55,775 nucleotides of DNA, from positions 1 to 55,775 of the forward strand of contig JAOARJ010000008.1 of assembly GCA_025210615.1 (NCBI GenBank), written 5' to 3'. Source of the DNA: Candidatus Altimarinota bacterium (GTDB lineage Bacteria; Patescibacteriota; Gracilibacteria; BD1-5; UBA6164). Below the pieces are notes generated by a model. It had not been told where the DNA came from. It ran no database searches and saw only the letters and a program-made list of their open reading frames with translations. Positions 9,065 to 46,081 of this stretch are shown in pieces (within the stretch, counting starts at the first letter, position 1; every line of letters begins with the position of its first letter). The position numbers and the translations under genes are program-made.

Positions 9065-9550
9065 ATGGATAAAAAATTATTGCTAGAGCGATATCTCTAT
9101 AACTTCGTTCCTGAGGTTATGTTGATATCAACATTATTAATGTTAATTATAGTGATTAACATTGTTGGAAATATTCCTTTATATGGTTACAAAACTTCTT
9201 CTATTTTTGATATTTGGAGTTTTGAGCATGTGGCATCAGGAATATTTATATCATCTTTTACTATTTCTTTTAGAAATAAGTTTCAACACCCCCTTGCTCT
9301 GACAATTCTCATATCTTTTATTTGGGAAACGATAGAGCATTATATTGAAACTGTTGGACCAGATTTTTTGGTACTATGGTTTGGTGGGGTTGAACATTGG
9401 TCAAACAGAATTTTGGCCGATGGATTGATGATTACCGTTGGGTTTTTGCTTGTAAAAGCATTCCCTAGCTGTAGGCTTCCAGCAAGAGGCTTTTCATTAA
9501 TTTTTATTATCTTCCATATCTATGTGGGAGATAGTATGTATTTTCATTAA
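9065..9550 (+). CDS. Membrane protein, unknown, probably acquired
   Basis: 161 aa with about four membrane segments. Conserved-looking polar residues lie in or near the membrane: FEHVASG (His), WETIEHYIE (Glu, Glu, His) and GGVEHWSNRILADGLM (Glu, His, Asn, Asp). That could be a metal or catalytic site, but no family is recognised. All ten glycines are GGN codons and none is TGA, unlike every neighbour, and the GC content is visibly higher. It has its own perfect promoter, a strong Shine-Dalgarno sequence and its own terminator. This is a good candidate for recent transfer from a standard-code bacterium. Confidence 0.8.
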   Translation: MDKKLLLERYLYNFVPEVMLISTLLMLIIVINIVGNIPLYGYKTSSIFDIWSFEHVASGIFISSFTISFRNKFQHPLALTILISFIWETIEHYIETVGPDFLVLWFGGVEHWSNRILADGLMITVGFLLVKAFPSCRLPARGFSLIFIIFHIYVGDSMYFH

Positions 9551-22822: not shown

Positions 22823-22848
22823 ATCACCGGCTTTCACCGGTGATTTTT
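22823..22848. terminator. GC-rich hairpin terminator
   Basis: ATCACCGG (22823-22830) pairs with CCGGTGAT (22837-22844) around a six-base loop, and TTTTTT follows on the plus strand. It is 4 bases after the stop of the foreign-looking gene at 22848, and is much richer in GC than native terminators here. Confidence 0.7.
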
Positions 22849-23222
22849 TACGCCCACATTTGCCACCACTTTTTGTGGGGAAAATGTTTCCTAATTATTT
22901 TAGAACGGCGAGGCCATAGCCAAATTTTCATACCAGGGGGAAGCCATCCTCTCTGAATTAAAAAGTCAGTCAGCGAGAAAAATTCTTCTCGTCCCCAGTA
23001 CTTTTCTCCGTCTGAATAGGCGTATCCCCATTCGCATCCCCATAATCCTGAGCGGATAGGAGTTTCGACTCCATCAACCCAAATTATTTTATGAGAATGA
23101 ATCCAATGAGCAACTCCCTTAGGGGCAGTTTTTCCTTCTGAAAGACGCCATCCTTCTGTTTTAATTGTTTCTATGGTATGAATACCATAGTATCTTACCA
23201 ATTTTTTTTTGTGTTTACTCAT
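22848..23222 (-). CDS. Trp-rich small protein, unknown, probably acquired
   Basis: 124 aa, with about a dozen tryptophans (for example HWIHSHKIIW, SGLWGCEWGYA, KKWWQMWA). No signal peptide or membrane helix. All glycines are GGN codons, none is TGA, and tryptophan is TGG. The GC content stands clearly above its surroundings. It has a strong Shine-Dalgarno AAAGGAG 7 bases before ATG, and TTGACT/ATTATA promoter elements. No family is recognised. Taken together these signs indicate import from a standard-code organism. Confidence 0.75.
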   Translation of the reverse strand: MSKHKKKLVRYYGIHTIETIKTEGWRLSEGKTAPKGVAHWIHSHKIIWVDGVETPIRSGLWGCEWGYAYSDGEKYWGREEFFSLTDFLIQRGWLPPGMKIWLWPRRSKIIRKHFPHKKWWQMWA

Positions 23223-24850: not shown

Positions 24851-24882
24851 AAAAAAGTTAGCTTTAAAGCTAACTTTTTTAT
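24851..24882. terminator. Bidirectional terminator, perfect 14-bp palindrome
   Basis: AAAAAGTTAGCTTT (24852-24865) joins AAAGCTAACTTTTT (24866-24879) with no spacer. It lies between the convergent gatA and the 909-aa secreted protein gene. Confidence 0.85.
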
Positions 24883-27611
24883 TATTTAGATTTTTTTAAT
24901 AACAATGTTTTTACTCTAGTTTTATTTAAAACTTCCCTTATCAAAGGTCAAATATCTTTGTTTTTATATTGATTATACATATCTTGTAGTCAAACTTGTA
25001 ATCATTCATAAATTTTTATTTTTATGTTTAGATTTCATTTAGATTTAGAGTTTACAATTTGTTCTAGTTTATCCATTATAATTTCTACTTTTTTAGAATC
25101 GACTTCTTGAGTTTTATTTTCTTGTTTAGTAGACACTTCTTCTTTTTTGTCTACTTGCGTGTCTAACTTGTCTACATTATTATTAATCGGTTTTTCTTGT
25201 ATTTTTTTATCTTCTTTAATTTCTTGAGTTTCATTTAATATAGCTCTATTACAATTTGATTTGTCTTTTTCACTATCTATACAAGTATCTCATAAATCAG
25301 CAATAACCTCAATAGATTTTTTATTATCAATAATTTTTATATAATCAGAAACATTATTTTTATCTGAATCTTTAGCCGTTATATCAATTAAAGAAATATT
25401 AAAATTCATAGGTTTTGTAAATACAGATTCTTTATATAATTTCATAGTTTGATCTGATGTCTTCGATGGAATTATAACATTTTTGAATTTTAAATATCCT
25501 TCTGGATCAATAATATTTGTAGAATATTTTATTCAATTTATATCTAATTTAAAACTTCACATATCATTTCTATCAGCAAAATTGTCTACTTTAAATTTTA
25601 TATTGTCTACAAAAAAATCTTCTAATTTATTAACTATATTATATTCAGCTACTATTTTATCTGTTAAAGAAAAAGTTTTAAATTTCTTTGTCATAGAAGG
25701 GTTTTTAAGAGAAACAGAAACTGTTCTATCATCTAAATCAGATAATACAATTATAGAGTAGTTTTTTGCCTTTTGGCTATTTTCAGCTCTTTGTACTGAC
25801 AAATTAATTTTTCATTTCACTCATTCTGGGACTATTGTTTCAATATATTTATTATCAAAGTTTTCTTCCTTCAAAGCGTAAGTTTTTATATTTCCAAATA
25901 AAATTATATCATCTGATTTGAATCCTGATCAATTTATTCTAATTTTATCTCATACTTTTATCCCTGGTTTATCCGTTTGTACTCAGTATATTTCAGGCGG
26001 TAAAGAAACTTTATTATTTACAATATCGCTAGATTTAAAATTCCTTGATAAAGATATACCGTTTTTTTTCAAAGTAAAGCTTGAATTTGCAGTTGGATTA
26101 TAATCTCTTCATAAAATAGACTCTATTTTTGTTCAAGAATTTTTTATTCTAGAATATTTTTCTTTTTCTTTATCTAAAATATTTGATGTAGTAATATCGG
26201 CATTATGCAATTTATCTCATGAAATATAAAAAGTTTTGTTTGGTTTTCTATCTCAGGTAAAGACAAATTCATCTACATAAAAACTATTATTTCTTCTAGC
26301 ATCATAAAAAATAGTATTAGAAACCTGTTCTCATCCTCTATAAATCGCTAGATATCAAGTTAATTTTGAAACTGGTACTTTTACTCTAATAGTATTATTA
26401 AATACGCTATCTATTTCAACTTTTGAATTACTTATTTTTACTTCTTCTTTGGCTTTATTTGGTAATCCATTACTAAGCATTAAAGTTACTTCAACCTTAT
26501 TATCAATAACATCTCAAAAAACATAAGAGCTTATATTATATTCTTTATCTGAAGAATTAAATTCAAATAAATCGCTATAATTTCACAAAATTTCTACTTG
26601 TGCAAAATTTATTTCTCTACCTGCCTTATAGCTGCTTAATACAATTTCCTTATCTGTCACACTATATACTGTTGTAGTTTGTCCATTTACCATAACTTTT
26701 ACATTTGCTTTTTCTGTTCAAAATTTTTCTCAATTAATAACTAATCTACGAATTTCATCTCCATTTGAATTAGTAGAAGCAACAATTTCTCAGATATATT
26801 TTATTTCTGGTTTATATCAAAGAGGTTTAAATTTAATTTCATTACTTTTATAATATTGATTTTCTACATAAATATCCACTTCTTTTTTATCTATTTCTGG
26901 AATTTTTATATAAAAACAATTATTTTTTAATTCTTTTGTTTCTTCAAAAAGTTTATTATTTATATAAAGGTCATCTTCATCAGTAAAATATTTTCAACAA
27001 ATTTGCATTGTCTCTCCCACTCAAAAATTTGTATCTGTTTTTAAATAATCAATATGAATTAGGTCAAGAGGAATTTCAATCTTGTTTGATTTTTTACCAT
27101 CAGCTATTACATATAATCATAATTTATTTAAATCGTTTGGAAGTGTTCAAAATAATGAAGTAAGCGTAGAATTTTTTAAATCAAACTTTCCAGATTCTAA
27201 AGTAACATTTATTTTAGGATAAAAGTTTTCTCACTGAATATAGATATCTCTACTTCATTTTTTTGTAAATTCTATTTTTTCTATATGAGGAAAAGCAAAA
27301 CTCTCTATTAATGTTTCTCATTCACAAGTTAATTCCAATTTTCAATTATAAGCGTTATCAGCTTCTCTATGATTGTAATTCACTCTTGTTTCTCAGCTTT
27401 GAGTAAAATTTACATATTTATCATTTATTTTTAACTGAGTACATTTTCAAAAATCTTCTCATTTAATATTAACAACTGTCTTTTCAGATAACTCTGAGGA
27501 ATAAGTTATTTCTTTTATTTTTGGTTCCTTTATTTCATTATCTTTGGCTAAAGTTAGATTAAATAATCAAAATAACAAAACAAAAGACAAAATTATTTTT
27601 TGTATTTTCAT
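24882..27611 (-). CDS. Large secreted Ig-like repeat protein, unknown
   Basis: 909 aa with signal peptide MKIQKIILSFVLLFGLFNLT. The mature chain looks like a string of beta-sandwich units of 80-100 residues (for example EKTVVNIKGEDFGKCTQLKI and ILSGTKIESIL-type repeats with GxxF-G(K/T) turns), typical of IPT/TIG or Ig-like domains. It has about eight cysteines in the first 300 residues. A polar stretch QEIKEDKKIQEKPINNNVDK near residue 790 leads to a basic helical tail. Its neighbour upstream is the SLH-type protein, so a place in the cell envelope is likely. TGA is used for many of its glycines. Confidence 0.65.
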
Positions 27612-27734: not shown

Positions 27735-27769
27735 AAAAAAAGACTCCCTATAAAGGAAAGTCTTTTTTG
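27735..27769. terminator. Terminator of the surface-layer gene
   Basis: AAAAAAGACTCCC pairs with the GGAAAGTCTTTTTT half. On the minus strand the stem is followed by TTTTTTTATTG. Confidence 0.8.
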
Positions 27770-27792: not shown

Positions 27793-30700
27793 TTATTTAG
27801 CAGTAACTTCAGCACCAGTAGCGTATACTTTAGTGAAGATAGTACCAGATGTACCAGCAGCAAGACCACCAGTTAATGTACCTCCACCAAATGCACCATT
27901 ACCACAAGTTTCAGTAGTAGTAATTGCGTTTCCAGCAGTACCAGAAGCATCAGCAGTAATAACAACTGTATCATCAGCAGTACTAGCTTTAGCATTAACT
28001 TTAGCAGCAGTTGTAGTATCACCATTAATAGCAGCAGCTAAGGCAGCAACAGCATCATCAGCAGTTACACCTCCAGATACATCAACAGCAACATCACCAC
28101 CGATAGCACTATTAGTATCGAATTCGAATGTTCTACCATCGATTACAACAGTTTCACCATCAGCAACAACACCTGAGAATGTTAATGTTCCTGTAGCGTA
28201 ATCAGCAGTACCATCTCTAAATTCAACAGTATCTCTGTTTAATTTAACAGTAACTTTAGCATCAGCATCAACTGAAGCATCGTTAGTAGCGTTTTCATTA
28301 ACTTCTAGAGATAATACGAATGTAGTAGTACCATCAATCTTAGCAGCATCACCAGCTAATCCAGTATTTAAATTATCAAATGTATAGTTTCCGGCATTTA
28401 ATTCAACAGAAGCTGTAGAAGCACCTGAATCTTTTTCTCTTAATTTAAGAGAGAATTTACCATCAGCTTGAGCATTTGGTTTAGTTATACCAGAAACAGC
28501 AATATCTGATGTTCTAAATACAACTTTCTTAAGAAGCGCTTTGATTGGATCATCACTAGCGTCTACATTAACTGTAGAAGTTGGAGTGATAACGATTTCA
28601 GCAACATCAATAAATGAAGTAACAGCAGGAGTATTGTCTAATTTCTTAAGATCAATACCAGCAATATCAGAAGCAATTAGAGTTACTTTCTTAGAAGTAG
28701 CATTACTTAAGTTAGCTGAAATGTCTTTATTAGAAGCATCACCTTCAATATCACCAGCAACAGTACCTTTAAGAGTGAAAGTAGTATTTAGTCCAGAAAC
28801 AGCAGAAGCAGCATCAGGATCTAAGTCAACTTTTTTAACATCAGCAATTAAGTAGTATACTTCTTTATTTTCAGTATCAACTACTAAGTTTTCCATGTCT
28901 TCAAATTTAACAGCAACTTTATCAGAAGAAATAGTTACAGTACCATTACCTACAACAGTAGATTTGTTTTCTTTAACCATTCTAACGTTTTCGATAGAAT
29001 CTCTGAATTCAGTAGCTAAGTCAGCAGAAGCGAATGAAGCAGTTTCAAAGTTTAAGTCTTTAACTTTAACTTTTTCTTTCTTAGCATCCATTTCTAATTT
29101 AGCAAGCATTACATTATCAGTACCACCTAATAGGAATCTATCAAAGTAGTTAAGGTCAGCTTCTTCAGAAGAATCGTTTTTAACGATATCAACATCAATA
29201 GTAAGAGCACCTTTGTTAGTTAATGAAATTACATTAGAGAATTTATCAGTTAAGTCACCACTAATATCAGCAGCAGCTAAGTTAGTACCAACTTCTTTAT
29301 CTTCTGCATCAATATCAGTTGCAGCGTTGATAGCTAATCTAATCTTATCTGTATTATCATTAGCAGTAGTTATATCATCATCAGCACCATCAATTGCATC
29401 ATCATCAGCTGATTTGAATTGAAGAGATACTTCCATATTTTGTTTATTAGAAGAACCTGCTTTGATAATTTCATCCATAGAAGTGAATTTAACAGTAGTA
29501 CCATCAATTTCAGTAGTTTCTATAGTTTTAGTACCAATCTTTAAGAATGCTTTAGCAACAACTAAATCTAAGTTAACTTTATTATCACCAGTATTAGTGA
29601 ATGTTAAGTTTCTAATTCTTACATCAGCTGAAGATCCAGCTTCAATAGTACCTTTATAAGCTTGAGTAATAACGTTTCCTAATACAACATCTTCAGAATC
29701 GATTTTGTTATTAGTAACTTCTAAACTAGCAGCTTTAATTTCTACGTTTCTAGTATCAAAACCAGAGTAAGAAGAAAGAACATCTTTAGCTAGAAGACTT
29801 CCAGCTCCTGTAACATTAGTATATGTTTTATCAGAGTCTTCATCTTCTAATTTAAATTCACCGTTTTGGAAATCAACAACGAATTTATATTTAGTACCTT
29901 TTCTTGCTTCTTTAGGAATATCAGCAGTTAATTTCATTTCTTTAGTTTCACCTTTTCTTAAAGTGATATCTTTGAATTCAACAGCAAAATATTTAAGGTC
30001 TGCATCAGCAGCAGGAGCTAAAGGATCAACTCCACCAAATTTAGTAACTGCATCAGCTAGTTTAACTTCATCTTCAGAAGAAATTCCACCTAATCTAATA
30101 TCAGTTAATAATTCATCTTGAATTAAATCTTTAGTACCAACATCAGTAGCATTTTTACCATCAACTGTTAGTAAGATTTTAAATGATTCTAAGTTATAGT
30201 TACCTGAATTAGCTTTTAGGCTAAGAGTACCAAAATCAAAATCATCAACATCAACATTTGAAGCATCTTTATCAGCTCTAGTGAAAGAAGCAGTAATTTC
30301 AGAACCTTCAATAGTTAATTCTTCACTTACATCTAAGTTACCTGTGAATGTAGTGTTAGAAGTATTTCTAACTGGAGCATTAAATCCATTTTTATCACCG
30401 ATAGCGTAAACATCATCTGATTTTTCAATTTGGAATTGAAGAGTATCAGCTGGTTCACCAGTAACTACACCTTTAAGTGCAAAGTAAACGTAAGCAGATT
30501 TTTCTTTAGGAAGAACATATCCTTCTCCAAAGTTAATTGTTACATAATCTTTAGCGAATGTTAAATTTTCAGCAACTTTTTTACCGTCAGCTTCAACATA
30601 CATTCCTTCAATATTTGATTCATTAACTGAACCAGTTTGTTTTAATCTGATAGTTTTGATAGAGATATCTTCTTTATCATTATCATTTTTAATTTTCCAA

Positions 30701-31959
30701 CCAGCTAATTTAGCATCTTCACCGATTGTAATTTTTTGACTAGCTTTATCAGCTCCTAGTACAAGGATACCTTGATTACTAATTTCAACTGATTCTAATT
30801 CAGCACCCGCAACAGGAGTTCCTTCTACAGAAGTAGAAGCTTTAACTTCAGTTACTTTAAGACCGAATACATCACCATTATTAGTATCAGCAATTTGAGC
30901 AGAAACTGTTAAAGTTTGAGTAGTTCCAGCTTTAACTGTAAAGTTATCTAAGAAGTCTAATTCAACGTTTAAGTCAGAACTAGAAACACTTCTTTGTCTA
31001 GTAACTTTTTCTCCTTCAGCGTTGTATAATACAACATCATCGATTTTACCAGCATCACCGAAACCGATAGAATCCATTTTAATTGTTTTTAATTCTACAT
31101 CTTCATCACCAGCAGCAAAATCTAATTTTAACATAGTGATTCTAGGAGTTTGTTCTGGAATTCTTTCACCTTTTCTTGGAGAATCTGGAGAAAGAGAAAC
31201 TTCTAATACTTTTCCTTCTACATCAGATGGAGTAGTAGGAGTAGTAGGTTCAGTTGGTTCAGTAGGAGTAGTAGGTTCAGTTGGTTCAGTTGGTTCAGTT
31301 GGTTTAACTGGATCTGTTGGTTCAGTAGGAGTTTCTTCTCCACAAGTACCAAAGATTTCACATAATTTAACTTCACCACCTTCTGAATCAGTAGGTTTTA
31401 CTTCTAATGCGTTAGCACCAGCTGTAAAAATCCATCCTCTTTTAGCAGAAGTATTATAATCTGTAAAAGATTCAGCAATTATCTTATTAGCTACAGCAGA
31501 TTCAACGTAGTCTTTTTGGTAGTTATCACCAGTTTCTACATTTATCCCTCTAGCTTTTTGGATAAATTTTAATGATTCCCATTTAGAGATGTTTCTATCA
31601 GCTCCAAATGTAGGGTTTCCTTTAACGAAACCTTTTGCTAAAGCAGCTTCAGCATATTTACATCCCCAATCTCCAGCTTGAAGATCAGCGAATTTTCCTT
31701 CACAAGTATCAGTAACTTCGATACCAGCAAGGTTAATCATAACTTTAGCCATTTCTCTTCTTGTAATGTTGTCTGTTAATTTATATTCAGCAACATTAGC
31801 AGAATTATCTTTGATAATTCCTTGACTGGCTAATTTATTAGCAGCTTCAATTTCAGCGCTTGCAGCAGCAGAAACGCTTGATACAGGAGCTACTATTGAC
31901 AAAGTAATTGCTGTAGCGCTAACACCAGCAACTATTTTTTTCAATAAAGAATTACTCAT
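27793..31959 (-). CDS. SLH-domain surface-layer-like protein
   Basis: 1388 aa. Signal peptide (MSNSLLKKIVAGVSATAI, then TLSIVAPVSSVSAA) and SLH-like repeats (AANKLASQGIIKDNS, REMAKVMINLAG, FADLQAGDWGCKYAE, and WESLKFIQKARGI). A PTEPTEPT-type linker (about 215-245) leads to repeated beta-rich domains through the whole C-terminal part. It should bind the cell wall by SLH and build the outer layer. About 107 Gly residues, all in GGN and none in TGA, and codon choice is narrow (GCA/GCT, GTT/GTA), as in highly expressed genes. Its long leader carries hairpins. Under the standard code it would still read intact. Confidence 0.85.
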   Translation of the reverse strand: MSNSLLKKIVAGVSATAITLSIVAPVSSVSAAASAEIEAANKLASQGIIKDNSANVAEYKLTDNITRREMAKVMINLAGIEVTDTCEGKFADLQAGDWGCKYAEAALAKGFVKGNPTFGADRNISKWESLKFIQKARGINVETGDNYQKDYVESAVANKIIAESFTDYNTSAKRGWIFTAGANALEVKPTDSEGGEVKLCEIFGTCGEETPTEPTDPVKPTEPTEPTEPTTPTEPTEPTTPTTPSDVEGKVLEVSLSPDSPRKGERIPEQTPRITMLKLDFAAGDEDVELKTIKMDSIGFGDAGKIDDVVLYNAEGEKVTRQRSVSSSDLNVELDFLDNFTVKAGTTQTLTVSAQIADTNNGDVFGLKVTEVKASTSVEGTPVAGAELESVEISNQGILVLGADKASQKITIGEDAKLAGWKIKNDNDKEDISIKTIRLKQTGSVNESNIEGMYVEADGKKVAENLTFAKDYVTINFGEGYVLPKEKSAYVYFALKGVVTGEPADTLQFQIEKSDDVYAIGDKNGFNAPVRNTSNTTFTGNLDVSEELTIEGSEITASFTRADKDASNVDVDDFDFGTLSLKANSGNYNLESFKILLTVDGKNATDVGTKDLIQDELLTDIRLGGISSEDEVKLADAVTKFGGVDPLAPAADADLKYFAVEFKDITLRKGETKEMKLTADIPKEARKGTKYKFVVDFQNGEFKLEDEDSDKTYTNVTGAGSLLAKDVLSSYSGFDTRNVEIKAASLEVTNNKIDSEDVVLGNVITQAYKGTIEAGSSADVRIRNLTFTNTGDNKVNLDLVVAKAFLKIGTKTIETTEIDGTTVKFTSMDEIIKAGSSNKQNMEVSLQFKSADDDAIDGADDDITTANDNTDKIRLAINAATDIDAEDKEVGTNLAAADISGDLTDKFSNVISLTNKGALTIDVDIVKNDSSEEADLNYFDRFLLGGTDNVMLAKLEMDAKKEKVKVKDLNFETASFASADLATEFRDSIENVRMVKENKSTVVGNGTVTISSDKVAVKFEDMENLVVDTENKEVYYLIADVKKVDLDPDAASAVSGLNTTFTLKGTVAGDIEGDASNKDISANLSNATSKKVTLIASDIAGIDLKKLDNTPAVTSFIDVAEIVITPTSTVNVDASDDPIKALLKKVVFRTSDIAVSGITKPNAQADGKFSLKLREKDSGASTASVELNAGNYTFDNLNTGLAGDAAKIDGTTTFVLSLEVNENATNDASVDADAKVTVKLNRDTVEFRDGTADYATGTLTFSGVVADGETVVIDGRTFEFDTNSAIGGDVAVDVSGGVTADDAVAALAAAINGDTTTAAKVNAKASTADDTVVITADASGTAGNAITTTETCGNGAFGGGTLTGGLAAGTSGTIFTKVYATGAEVTAK

Positions 31960-32010
31960 ATGTATTAAGTAATTAATAAAATAAATAAATAAACATTAAT
32001 CAATGCTTAT

Positions 32011-32110
32011 ACATCGGTTAAAGCTTTAACCCAATGTTATAACCAATAACAAAGGGAAAATAACAACTAAATTTTCTTCCAATTAGTTATCATTATTCCC
32101 ATTGTTATTT
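32011..32110 (-). promoter_or_regulatory. Two hairpins in the surface-layer mRNA leader
   Basis: Between promoter and ATG lie two strong stem-loops. GGTTAAAGCTTTAACC (32016-32031) is a perfect 16-base palindrome, flanked by ACAT/ATGT pairs. The second has arms AATAACAAAGGGAA (32045-32058) and TTCCCATTGTTATT (32096-32109) with one mismatch, and an inner AACTAA/TTAGTT pair (32065-32070, 32083-32088). Neither has a T-run, so they are not terminators. Such leaders often stabilise surface-layer messages; this is inferred. Confidence 0.65.
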
Positions 32111-32186
32111 AAGTTTTTTAATTGATATTAAATATTCAACGCGATTTGTAATTGCAGAATATGTCAATGTTCATTAAACGCTTCGC

Positions 32187-32214
32187 ATTATATTCATAAA
32201 AAGACGTAGGTCAA
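32187..32214 (-). promoter_or_regulatory. Promoter of the surface-layer gene
   Basis: On the minus strand TTGACC (32214-32209), a 16-bp spacer and a perfect TATAAT (32192-32187). Transcription would begin near 32180, giving a leader of about 220 bases before the ATG at 31959. Confidence 0.6.
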
Positions 32215-43258: not shown

Positions 43259-46081
43259 TTATTTATTATCAAAATATTGTTTTATAGCCTGTCCAGTATA
43301 ACTTTTTTTATTTTTTACAATCTTTTTTATATCTCATTTGTCTACCACTTTTCCTCAAGCATCTCATCAAGTTGGTCCAATGTCTATAATATAATCACTA
43401 TTCAAAATCACGTCCATATTATGCTCAATAACTAACACAGAATTACCTTTATCAACCAAAGAGTGAAGAATCTTAAGTAATTTTTCTACGTCTTGAAAAT
43501 GAAGTCAAGTAGTCGGTTCATCTAAAATATAAAAAGTTTTTCAAGTCGAACGTTTAGATAATTCAGTCGCTAATTTTATTCTTTGAGCTTCTCATCCTGA
43601 AAGCGTAGTAGAGCTTTGTCAAAGTCTAAGATAACCTAATCATACTTTATTTAATACCTCTAAAATTTTTTTAATCTTAGGATGAGCAGAAAAGAAATCC
43701 AACGCCTCTTCAACTGTCATTTCAAGCACATCACTAATACTTTTTCATTTATACTTTATCGTCAAAGTTTCTTTATTAAATCTTTTTCATTTACAAGATT
43801 CACAAGTTACATAAACAGGAGGTAAAAAGTGCATTTCTACTTTTTTAACCCCATCTCAATCACAATTTTCACATCTTCATCATTTAGTGTTAAAACTAAA
43901 TCTTCAAGGCTTATATCATCTAATTTTAGCCTCTTGCGTTTCTGAAAAAACATCTCTTATAAAAGTAAAAACTCAAGTATAAGTCGCAGGGTTAGAACGC
44001 GGTGTTCTACCAATTGGTGACTGGTCAATAATTACAACTTTGTCTAGTTTGTCTAGTCATTCTATCTTGTCTACTTTCCCTACACTTCTCCTCGCTCAAT
44101 TAAGATTATTCGCTAAGTAAGGGGAAATAATATGATTAACTAATGATGATTTTCAACTACCTGAAACTCAAGTTACAACTGTCAAGTTTGACAAAGGAAT
44201 GTCTACATTAACTTTCTTCAAATTATTTTGAGCCGCTCAATAAACACTCAAATAATCTACTATTTTTCTATCTTCCCTTTTTATATTAATAGTTTTTTCT
44301 CCTGATAAATAAGGTGCTGTTATAGATTTTTTATTTTTTAAAACTTTCTCTGGTGTCCCTTCTGCTATGACCAATCATCCATGTTTTCAAGCTCCAGGTC
44401 AAATGTCTATAATATGGTCACATTGTTTCATAATATCTTCATCATGTTCTACAACAATCAAAGTATTTCAAATATCTCTAAGCCTCTTCAAATTATCTAT
44501 AAGCATCTGATTGTCTCTCGGATGAAGCCCAATAGAAGGTTCATCTAAAACATAAATTATCCCTTCTAATTTAGTTCAGATTTGCGTAGCAAGCCTTATT
44601 CTTTGTCCTTCTCAACCCGACAATGTCCCCGATTTACGAGAAATAGTAATATAACTAAGACCAACTCAAGACAAAAATTCTAACCTGTCTACTACATTTT
44701 TAAAAATTCATTTAATAATTTTCTCTTTATTTTTCGGATATTTATAATTTTTAAAAAATTCTATCGCTTTGTCAACAGATAAATCAGCAAGTTCTCAAAT
44801 ATTTTTTCATTCAATATAAATACTTAAAGATTCTGGTTTTAATCTACATCAGCTGCAGCTAGGACAAGGCATTAAAGTAGTAAATTCTTTTAATCTATCA
44901 CTATCTCTATCACCACTAAAATATCTTCTTGATAAAGTATTAATTACTCACTCAAATCTAGAATGATAAGTATTTGTTCTCCCATCATCTGTCGTATGTT
45001 TTACTCTATATTTTTGTTCTCCAGTACCATACATAAGCAATTTTCTCTCTTCTTTTGTATAATTTTTATATGGAATATTAGTTTTAAATCAATGCTCTTT
45101 TCATACCTCTATCATCAAATTTATATAATAACTTCAAAAACCATGAGCAATAATAGCTCATTCCTCTATTGATAAATTCGGCTTAACTAAGCTAGACTCT
45201 AAAAAGACTGCTTTCTCTCATAATCCGTGACATTCCGTACAAGCTCAATAATGAGAATTAAATGAAAATGATGATATTGTCAATTCTTCAGGAATATGTC
45301 AACAACTCGAACACACAAAAATATTACTATATTTCACATTTTCTTTATTGTCTATATAGTCTATTTCAAGTAGTCATTCTCACGTTTTAAAAGCCAATTC
45401 AATAGAATCTTGTACTCTTTTATAATCTGTACTTTCTTCATCTGAAAAATCTTTTACAATAAGTCTGTCTACTACAACATAAATTTCATCATCTTTGTCT
45501 ACTTTAATATTGTCATTTATAGTATAAATCTCTCAATTAAGAGAAAATCTAATGAATCATAAATTTAAAACTGTCTTTTTTACAAGCTCAAAACTTTTTT
45601 CTTCTCATCTCAAAATAGGAGCTTTTATAATAAATTTTTCTCACTCTTTTCTATTTGATAAATCTTCAAAAATACTCTCTAAACTATCTTTTTTTATAAC
45701 ACTTCCACATTTTATACATTTTCTCTCTCATAAATGCAAATAAAGAAGTTTATAATAATCATAAATTTCTGTTATTGTTCAAACAGTACTTCTAGGATTA
45801 TTTGAAACCGTTTTTTGGTCAATAGAAATAGTAGGAGAAAGTCCTTGAATATCTACTACATCAGCCTCTTCTCACATACCTCAAACAAACATTCTCGCAT
45901 AAGTCGATAAACTCTCCAAATACTTCTTTTTTCACTCATTATAAATAGTATGAAAAGCCAAAGATGACTTCCCACTCCCCGAAACTCAAGTAATAACTAC
46001 AAGTTTATCCTTTGGAATATTTACATTAATGTTTTTTAAATTATGCGTTTTCGCTCAAATAACTTTTAACTCCTTAGACAT
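43259..46081 (-). CDS. uvrA: Excinuclease ABC subunit A
   Basis: 940 aa, full length. Two ABC ATPase halves. N-terminal Walker [21 protein letters not shown] (about 31-50) has TGA for the first Gly of GVSGSGKS, and zinc-finger Cys pairs (CIKCG) follow. The C-terminal half also carries [10 protein letters not shown] and a signature with [12 protein letters not shown]-type residues on the minus strand near 43580-43620. It finds lesions in DNA for nucleotide excision repair with UvrB and UvrC, which are not here. It is 24 bases after the comF gene and before murB. Confidence 0.94.

Follow-up and report, generated by a model that had tools for sequence, protein, structure and literature searches.

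Avoidance of the reassigned glycine codon UGA in a probable S-layer protein gene and other presumably highly expressed genes of a Candidatus Gracilibacteria genome

The window analysed here is a 55,775-nucleotide stretch of contig JAOARJ010000008.1, from a bacterium that belongs to Candidatus Gracilibacteria (BD1-5) and uses genetic code 25, in which UGA specifies glycine. On its minus strand, at 27793–31959, lies the gene of a 1388-residue, probable SLH-domain surface (S-layer) protein, and not one of its 107 glycine codons is TGA, the codon that encodes most glycines of the genome. The remaining codons of this gene are those of the organism's own highly expressed genes, and the same purge recurs in relatives. 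The explanation that we favor, with a probability of roughly 0.87, is that translational selection against UGA purges the most heavily translated genes, UGA most likely being a slow codon.

The open reading frame (ORF) of the SLH gene starts with ATG, ends with TAA, and is open in both translation tables 11 and 25. The Pfam SLH domain is matched weakly, just under the cut-off of 20.8 bits (20.5 bits, E 4.7e-4), and the best PDB matches are S-layer proteins (E 0.008–0.045 over residues 37–116). A first-pass annotation of this DNA had described about 107 GGN glycine codons without a TGA, and the count agrees exactly: 76 GGT, 30 GGA, one GGG, no GGC, and no TGA. Codon counts covering 1.23 Mb of the 1.25-Mb genome (1197 ORFs) give TGA for 15917 of 23652 glycine codons (67.3%). 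When the 909 genes with at least 8 glycines are ranked by TGA deficit, the SLH gene takes first place (binomial p = 1.2e-52), and chance is excluded as the cause. It is followed by the gene of a secreted protein (C5:88772-89935; 0/35), EF-Tu, and EF-G. The contrast with the downstream neighbor, which encodes a TIG-domain secreted protein (24882–27611, minus strand), is as had been described, with TGA at 36 of 49 glycine codons. Nearly every other gene of the window has 33–100% TGA among its glycine codons, the exceptions to this part of the annotation being two ORFs with none, at 9065–9550 (10 glycines) and 22848–23222 (12 glycines).

The avoidance extends to genes for which high expression is expected, which were located by searching with the corresponding proteins of E. 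coli K-12. TGA makes up 19% of the glycine codons of 38 ribosomal proteins (81/421), 5% of those of EF-Tu (2/41), 16% in EF-G (9/55), and 0% in EF-Ts (0/14), compared with 67% overall, in support of the claim that heavily translated genes are cleared of UGA. Among single ribosomal proteins, L7/L12 (0/14) and L10 (0/12) lack it entirely and S2 has a single one (1/18). The RNA polymerase genes fall in between (rpoB 52%, rpoC 45%), and an ordinary share is found in gspE (72%), gspF (96%), PyrH (82%), and UvrA (64%). The last of these, whose gene lies in the window (43259–46081, minus strand; TGA at 54 of 85 glycines), served as the low-expression control across relatives.

In bacteria, translational selection restricts highly expressed genes to a small set of favored codons. 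Here too such a set exists, consisting of GGU, GCU, and ACU, with AAC, TAC, and TTC raised, but the disfavored codon, unlike in the usual case, is the reassigned one and the commonest glycine codon of the genome. A codon adaptation score was trained on the ribosomal proteins of the same genome and computed from non-glycine codons only. By this score the SLH gene ranks fourth of 855 in ribosomal-like codon usage, with EF-Tu and a probable ATP synthase c subunit ranking nearby. Across the genome, the TGA share drops as the score rises (rho -0.18, p = 7e-8; partial on GC content at third codon positions (GC3), -0.20), and the top decile has 48% TGA against 67–75% in the other deciles. The TGA-free gene at C5:88772-89935 (plus strand), with 27 GGT among its 35 glycine codons, has the third-highest ribosomal-like codon usage; its product is likely another abundant surface protein.

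The same pattern is found in relatives. SLH orthologues in Gracilibacteria share about 24–36% identity and mostly have 0–9% TGA. With relatives G001 and G005 left out, the TGA share of the SLH gene is lower than that of UvrA in 19 of 19 genomes (means 6% versus 66%; Wilcoxon p = 4e-6). EF-Tu is likewise below UvrA in 41 of 41 genomes, a comparison made with approximate glycine totals, and in the eight genomes where both genes were counted SLH averages 2% TGA and EF-Tu 6%. In the published complete genome CP042461.1, TGA amounts to 52% overall, 1/91 in the SLH orthologue, and 0/40 in EF-Tu. The shares of EF-Tu and UvrA rise together across genomes (rho 0.74), as expected under mutation–selection balance. 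A control within the locus is provided by the many genera in which a glycosyltransferase gene, so named from sequence resemblance judged by eye, lies 30–143 nt before the SLH gene, a spacing that suggests co-transcription. In all 11 counted pairs the glycosyltransferase has 47–94% TGA and the adjoining SLH gene 0–9%; the purge thus acts on each gene and not on a region.

The decoding apparatus is that of known code-25 bacteria. Long ORFs are open only if UGA is read as sense, and UGA is then the dominant glycine codon. The RF2 gene, prfB, is absent from the genome: the sole match to the prfB model is below cut-off and carries the RF1-type PTT motif (read by eye), and RF1 is present. Glycine is served by one tRNA gene with anticodon UCA and one with UCC, and no tRNA-Gly(GCC) was found in the genome's tRNA set. 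The tRNA-Gly(UCA), at C9:73572-73650, has the elements of glycine identity G1:C72, C2:G71, G3:C70, and U73 (criteria from PMC8629427). It occurs as a single copy in each of 53 of 60 relatives, 84–100% identical, across genera. Its structure is unusual: in the ARAGORN fold the D arm is atypical and the anticodon stem has 6 bp. ARAGORN calls it a selenocysteine (SeC) tRNA, and it is missing among the Rfam tRNA matches, which recovered 32 other tRNAs. In the favored mechanism, AT-biased mutation would drive most glycine codons to UGA and translational selection would restore GGU and GGA in the most heavily translated genes, that of the S-layer protein foremost. If UGA, read by one structurally unusual tRNA, is a slow codon, each UGA in a very abundant mRNA would cost ribosome time.

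The annotation had proposed that UGA decoding is slow or leaky, and the second half of this proposal is the rival that survives best. UGA might be misread or cause termination or tryptophan insertion, so that its cost would lie in error and not in slowness. Single peptides with tryptophan, alanine, lysine, or aspartate at UGA have indeed been reported in a BD1-5 proteome (PMC4032931), and wobble could in principle let a UCA anticodon pair with UGG too (PMC8629427). However, selection for accuracy predicts that UGA is scarcer at conserved glycines, and no such depletion was found: two genomes give a Mantel-Haenszel odds ratio of 1.22, contrary to the prediction but biased above 1 because new glycine codons arise as GGN, so that weak accuracy selection may still act, and in UvrA across 26 genomes the ratio is 1.04 (not significant). 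Ribosome drop-off predicts scarcity toward 3' ends or in long genes, but comparison of gene halves gave a weak or opposite trend and gene length has no effect on UGA share (rho -0.016). Accuracy selection and processivity were both rejected on these grounds, and the absence of RF2 argues against leaky termination. Since both sets of tests were negative, elongation speed or tRNA supply is the likelier cost. A cost in error thus appears unlikely, though it deserves to be kept in mind, and slow decoding is probably what is selected against.

A less probable alternative is ordinary codon bias, in which GGU is the optimal codon and UGA drops passively with the other non-optimal ones. In agreement with it, the GGU share of 12% climbs to 45% in ribosomal proteins and to 71% in the SLH gene, and U-ending codons are favored in the other four-codon boxes as well. 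Those boxes are read mostly by U34 tRNAs, yet high-expression genes favor U-ending codons there. Passive bias, however, predicts an equal ratio of UGA to GGA in genes of high and low expression. The observed TGA:GGA ratios are 81:128 in ribosomal proteins and 15836:3192 elsewhere, a drop of about eight-fold, and because TGA falls relative to GGA too, the avoidance is more than a preference for GGU. Moreover, glycine alone among the amino acids has one major codon in the genome at large and another in ribosomal proteins. Ordinary bias differs from selection against UGA in degree, and UGA is disfavored under both. Pressure on first-position GC content was also considered as a cause and rejected, as leucine codons show no shift between TTA and CTN (TTA share 0.64 in ribosomal proteins, 0.60 elsewhere).

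Mutational robustness, made possible by a code table that places UGA-Gly one transition from UAA so that important genes would avoid it, is very improbable, given the lack of a gene-length effect and the UGA kept by probably essential, less expressed genes (pyrH 82%, trmD 64%, thrS 62%, rpoA 54%).

Equally hard to credit is acquisition of the SLH gene from a standard-code organism, in which it would never have held an in-frame UGA; this was the second reading offered by the annotation. The gene is open under the standard code, and the genome does contain other TGA-free, foreign-looking genes, which have GC3 of about 0.25–0.35 and a mixture of GGA, GGG, and GGC. The SLH gene, however, has the native GC3 of 0.11 and the codon usage of the organism's own ribosomal proteins and EF-Tu, and across the family that recodes UGA its orthologues, with the same leader element, occupy the S-layer locus. 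No close standard-code relative of the protein was found in 84,980 species genomes. The matches in that collection come nearly all from Gracilibacteria or Patescibacteria, the best being 34–37% identical over long stretches; the highest local identity is 53% over the N-terminal 186 residues, in one bacterial record, and the lone match in Parcubacteria is 24% identical. A standard-code donor was rejected on all four grounds. The two small TGA-free ORFs of the window, at 22848–23222 (minus strand, GC3 0.34) and 9065–9550 (plus strand, GC3 0.28), have no family match above cut-off and from their composition look foreign or recently acquired; a search for a phage homologue of the former found none.

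Several observations weigh against translational selection as a full account. The annotation had expected ribosomal proteins and chaperones alike to lack TGA, and the chaperones follow only in part: DnaK has 40%, and GroEL (61%) and GroES (4/6) keep it. Ribosomal protein L9 (C9:2825-3280), unlike the other ribosomal proteins, has TGA at 11 of 13 glycines. The genome-wide correlation between TGA share and adaptation is modest, nearly all of it residing in the top decile. The avoidance is nearly gone in relative G071, where UvrA has 81 TGA and EF-Tu 35, an indication that selection can be overwhelmed; G071 is a small (0.7 Mb) member of the class with UGA near saturation even in EF-Tu. Finally, the SLH protein is presumed abundant from the identity of its gene and its codon usage.

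The high expression presumed for the SLH gene is plausibly supported by its 5' leader, a conserved structured RNA at 31996–32127 (minus strand; model R1, 59.8 bits). It comprises a long covarying hairpin followed by an invariant GGTTAA-hairpin. The latter includes the palindrome GGTTAAAGCTTTAACC at 32016–32031 (minus strand), the local version of an element that is near-invariant after the long hairpin at the S-layer loci of relatives (GGTTAAGGCTTTAACC/T in 34 aligned leaders). The structured leader noted by the annotation is well founded: the 225 nt upstream of the gene fold with z = -4.8, whereas 60 sampled leaders of the same genome average -1.1, and among the 34 sequences 18 of 26 pairs have changed on both sides. 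In this alignment 88% of cells pair, compared with 37–53% when it is slid, and the covariation score is 0.487, compared with 0.10–0.17 slid and 0.21 shuffled. The end hairpin shows no variation; it may instead be a site where a protein binds. Searched with a covariance model, 34 of 36 family members, the present one included, each yield a single sense copy, and seven genomes of sister families yield weaker ones, of which three lie immediately upstream of the SLH gene. In some genera the leader directly precedes the SLH gene and in others the glycosyltransferase gene, and in the present DNA its short motif occurs at the S-layer leader only. No Rfam match above gathering score was found for the S-layer leader, a strong candidate for an RNA family of its own. 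The promoter claimed by the annotation fared less well: TTGACC-16-TATAAT upstream of the leader (32187–32214, minus strand) matches sigma-70 at 11 of 12 positions, and such matches are no commoner than in shuffled sequence. Directly 3' of the SLH stop codon lies a terminator-like hairpin with a T run (27736–27768, minus strand).

A folded untranslated leader is reportedly also carried by the S-layer mRNA of Lactobacillus slpA, possibly for mRNA stability. The present leader differs in its conserved hairpins with near-invariant GGTTAAGGCTTTAACC, its single copy per genome, and its lack of an Rfam match, and leaders with GGTTAAGGCTTTAACC have so far been found mainly at Gracilibacteria S-layer loci. 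A literature search for structured S-layer mRNA leaders returned no paper.

The recoding itself is well established (Campbell et al. 2013 and Rinke et al. 2013, as cited in PMC8629427), including UGA as glycine in BD1-5 (Hanke et al. 2014; PMC4032931). In trypanosomatids of the genus Blastocrithidia (PMC12153298) and in an oligohymenophorean ciliate (PMC10553269), highly expressed genes are known to avoid reassigned stop codons, and the authors of these studies propose translational burden or inefficiency. As here, the reassigned codons are common genome-wide and depleted in highly expressed genes such as those of cytosolic ribosomal proteins. Those are nuclear codes (UAR=Glu/UGA=Trp or UAA=Lys/UAG=Glu), whereas the present case is bacterial, with four GGN synonyms, UGA as the majority glycine codon, RF2 lost, and one gene of 107 glycines wholly purged. 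Among open-access papers, none was found that describes UGA avoidance linked to expression in code-25 bacteria.

These results suggest that a codon reassignment which a whole bacterial family has kept continues to be costly in translation, the genome's favorite glycine codon being cleared from those genes that are translated most heavily. Tests at conserved sites, at 3' ends, and by gene length are a first step toward telling whether recoding is costly through slow or through erroneous decoding. A bolder and rather doubtful proposal is that the density of UGA throttles translation in Gracilibacteria in a graded and heritable way, setting the ratio of glycosyltransferase to SLH protein behind one leader RNA of a new, S-layer-dedicated family. 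Translation would then be slow on the UGA-rich first gene and run at its full rate on the UGA-free S-layer gene, and the reassigned codon would set protein ratios beyond being tolerated. For uncultured Gracilibacteria, where expression data are scarce, UGA content may serve as an indicator of translation load that can be read from the genome alone; by this indicator the strongest purge is that of the S-layer protein gene, ahead of EF-Tu.

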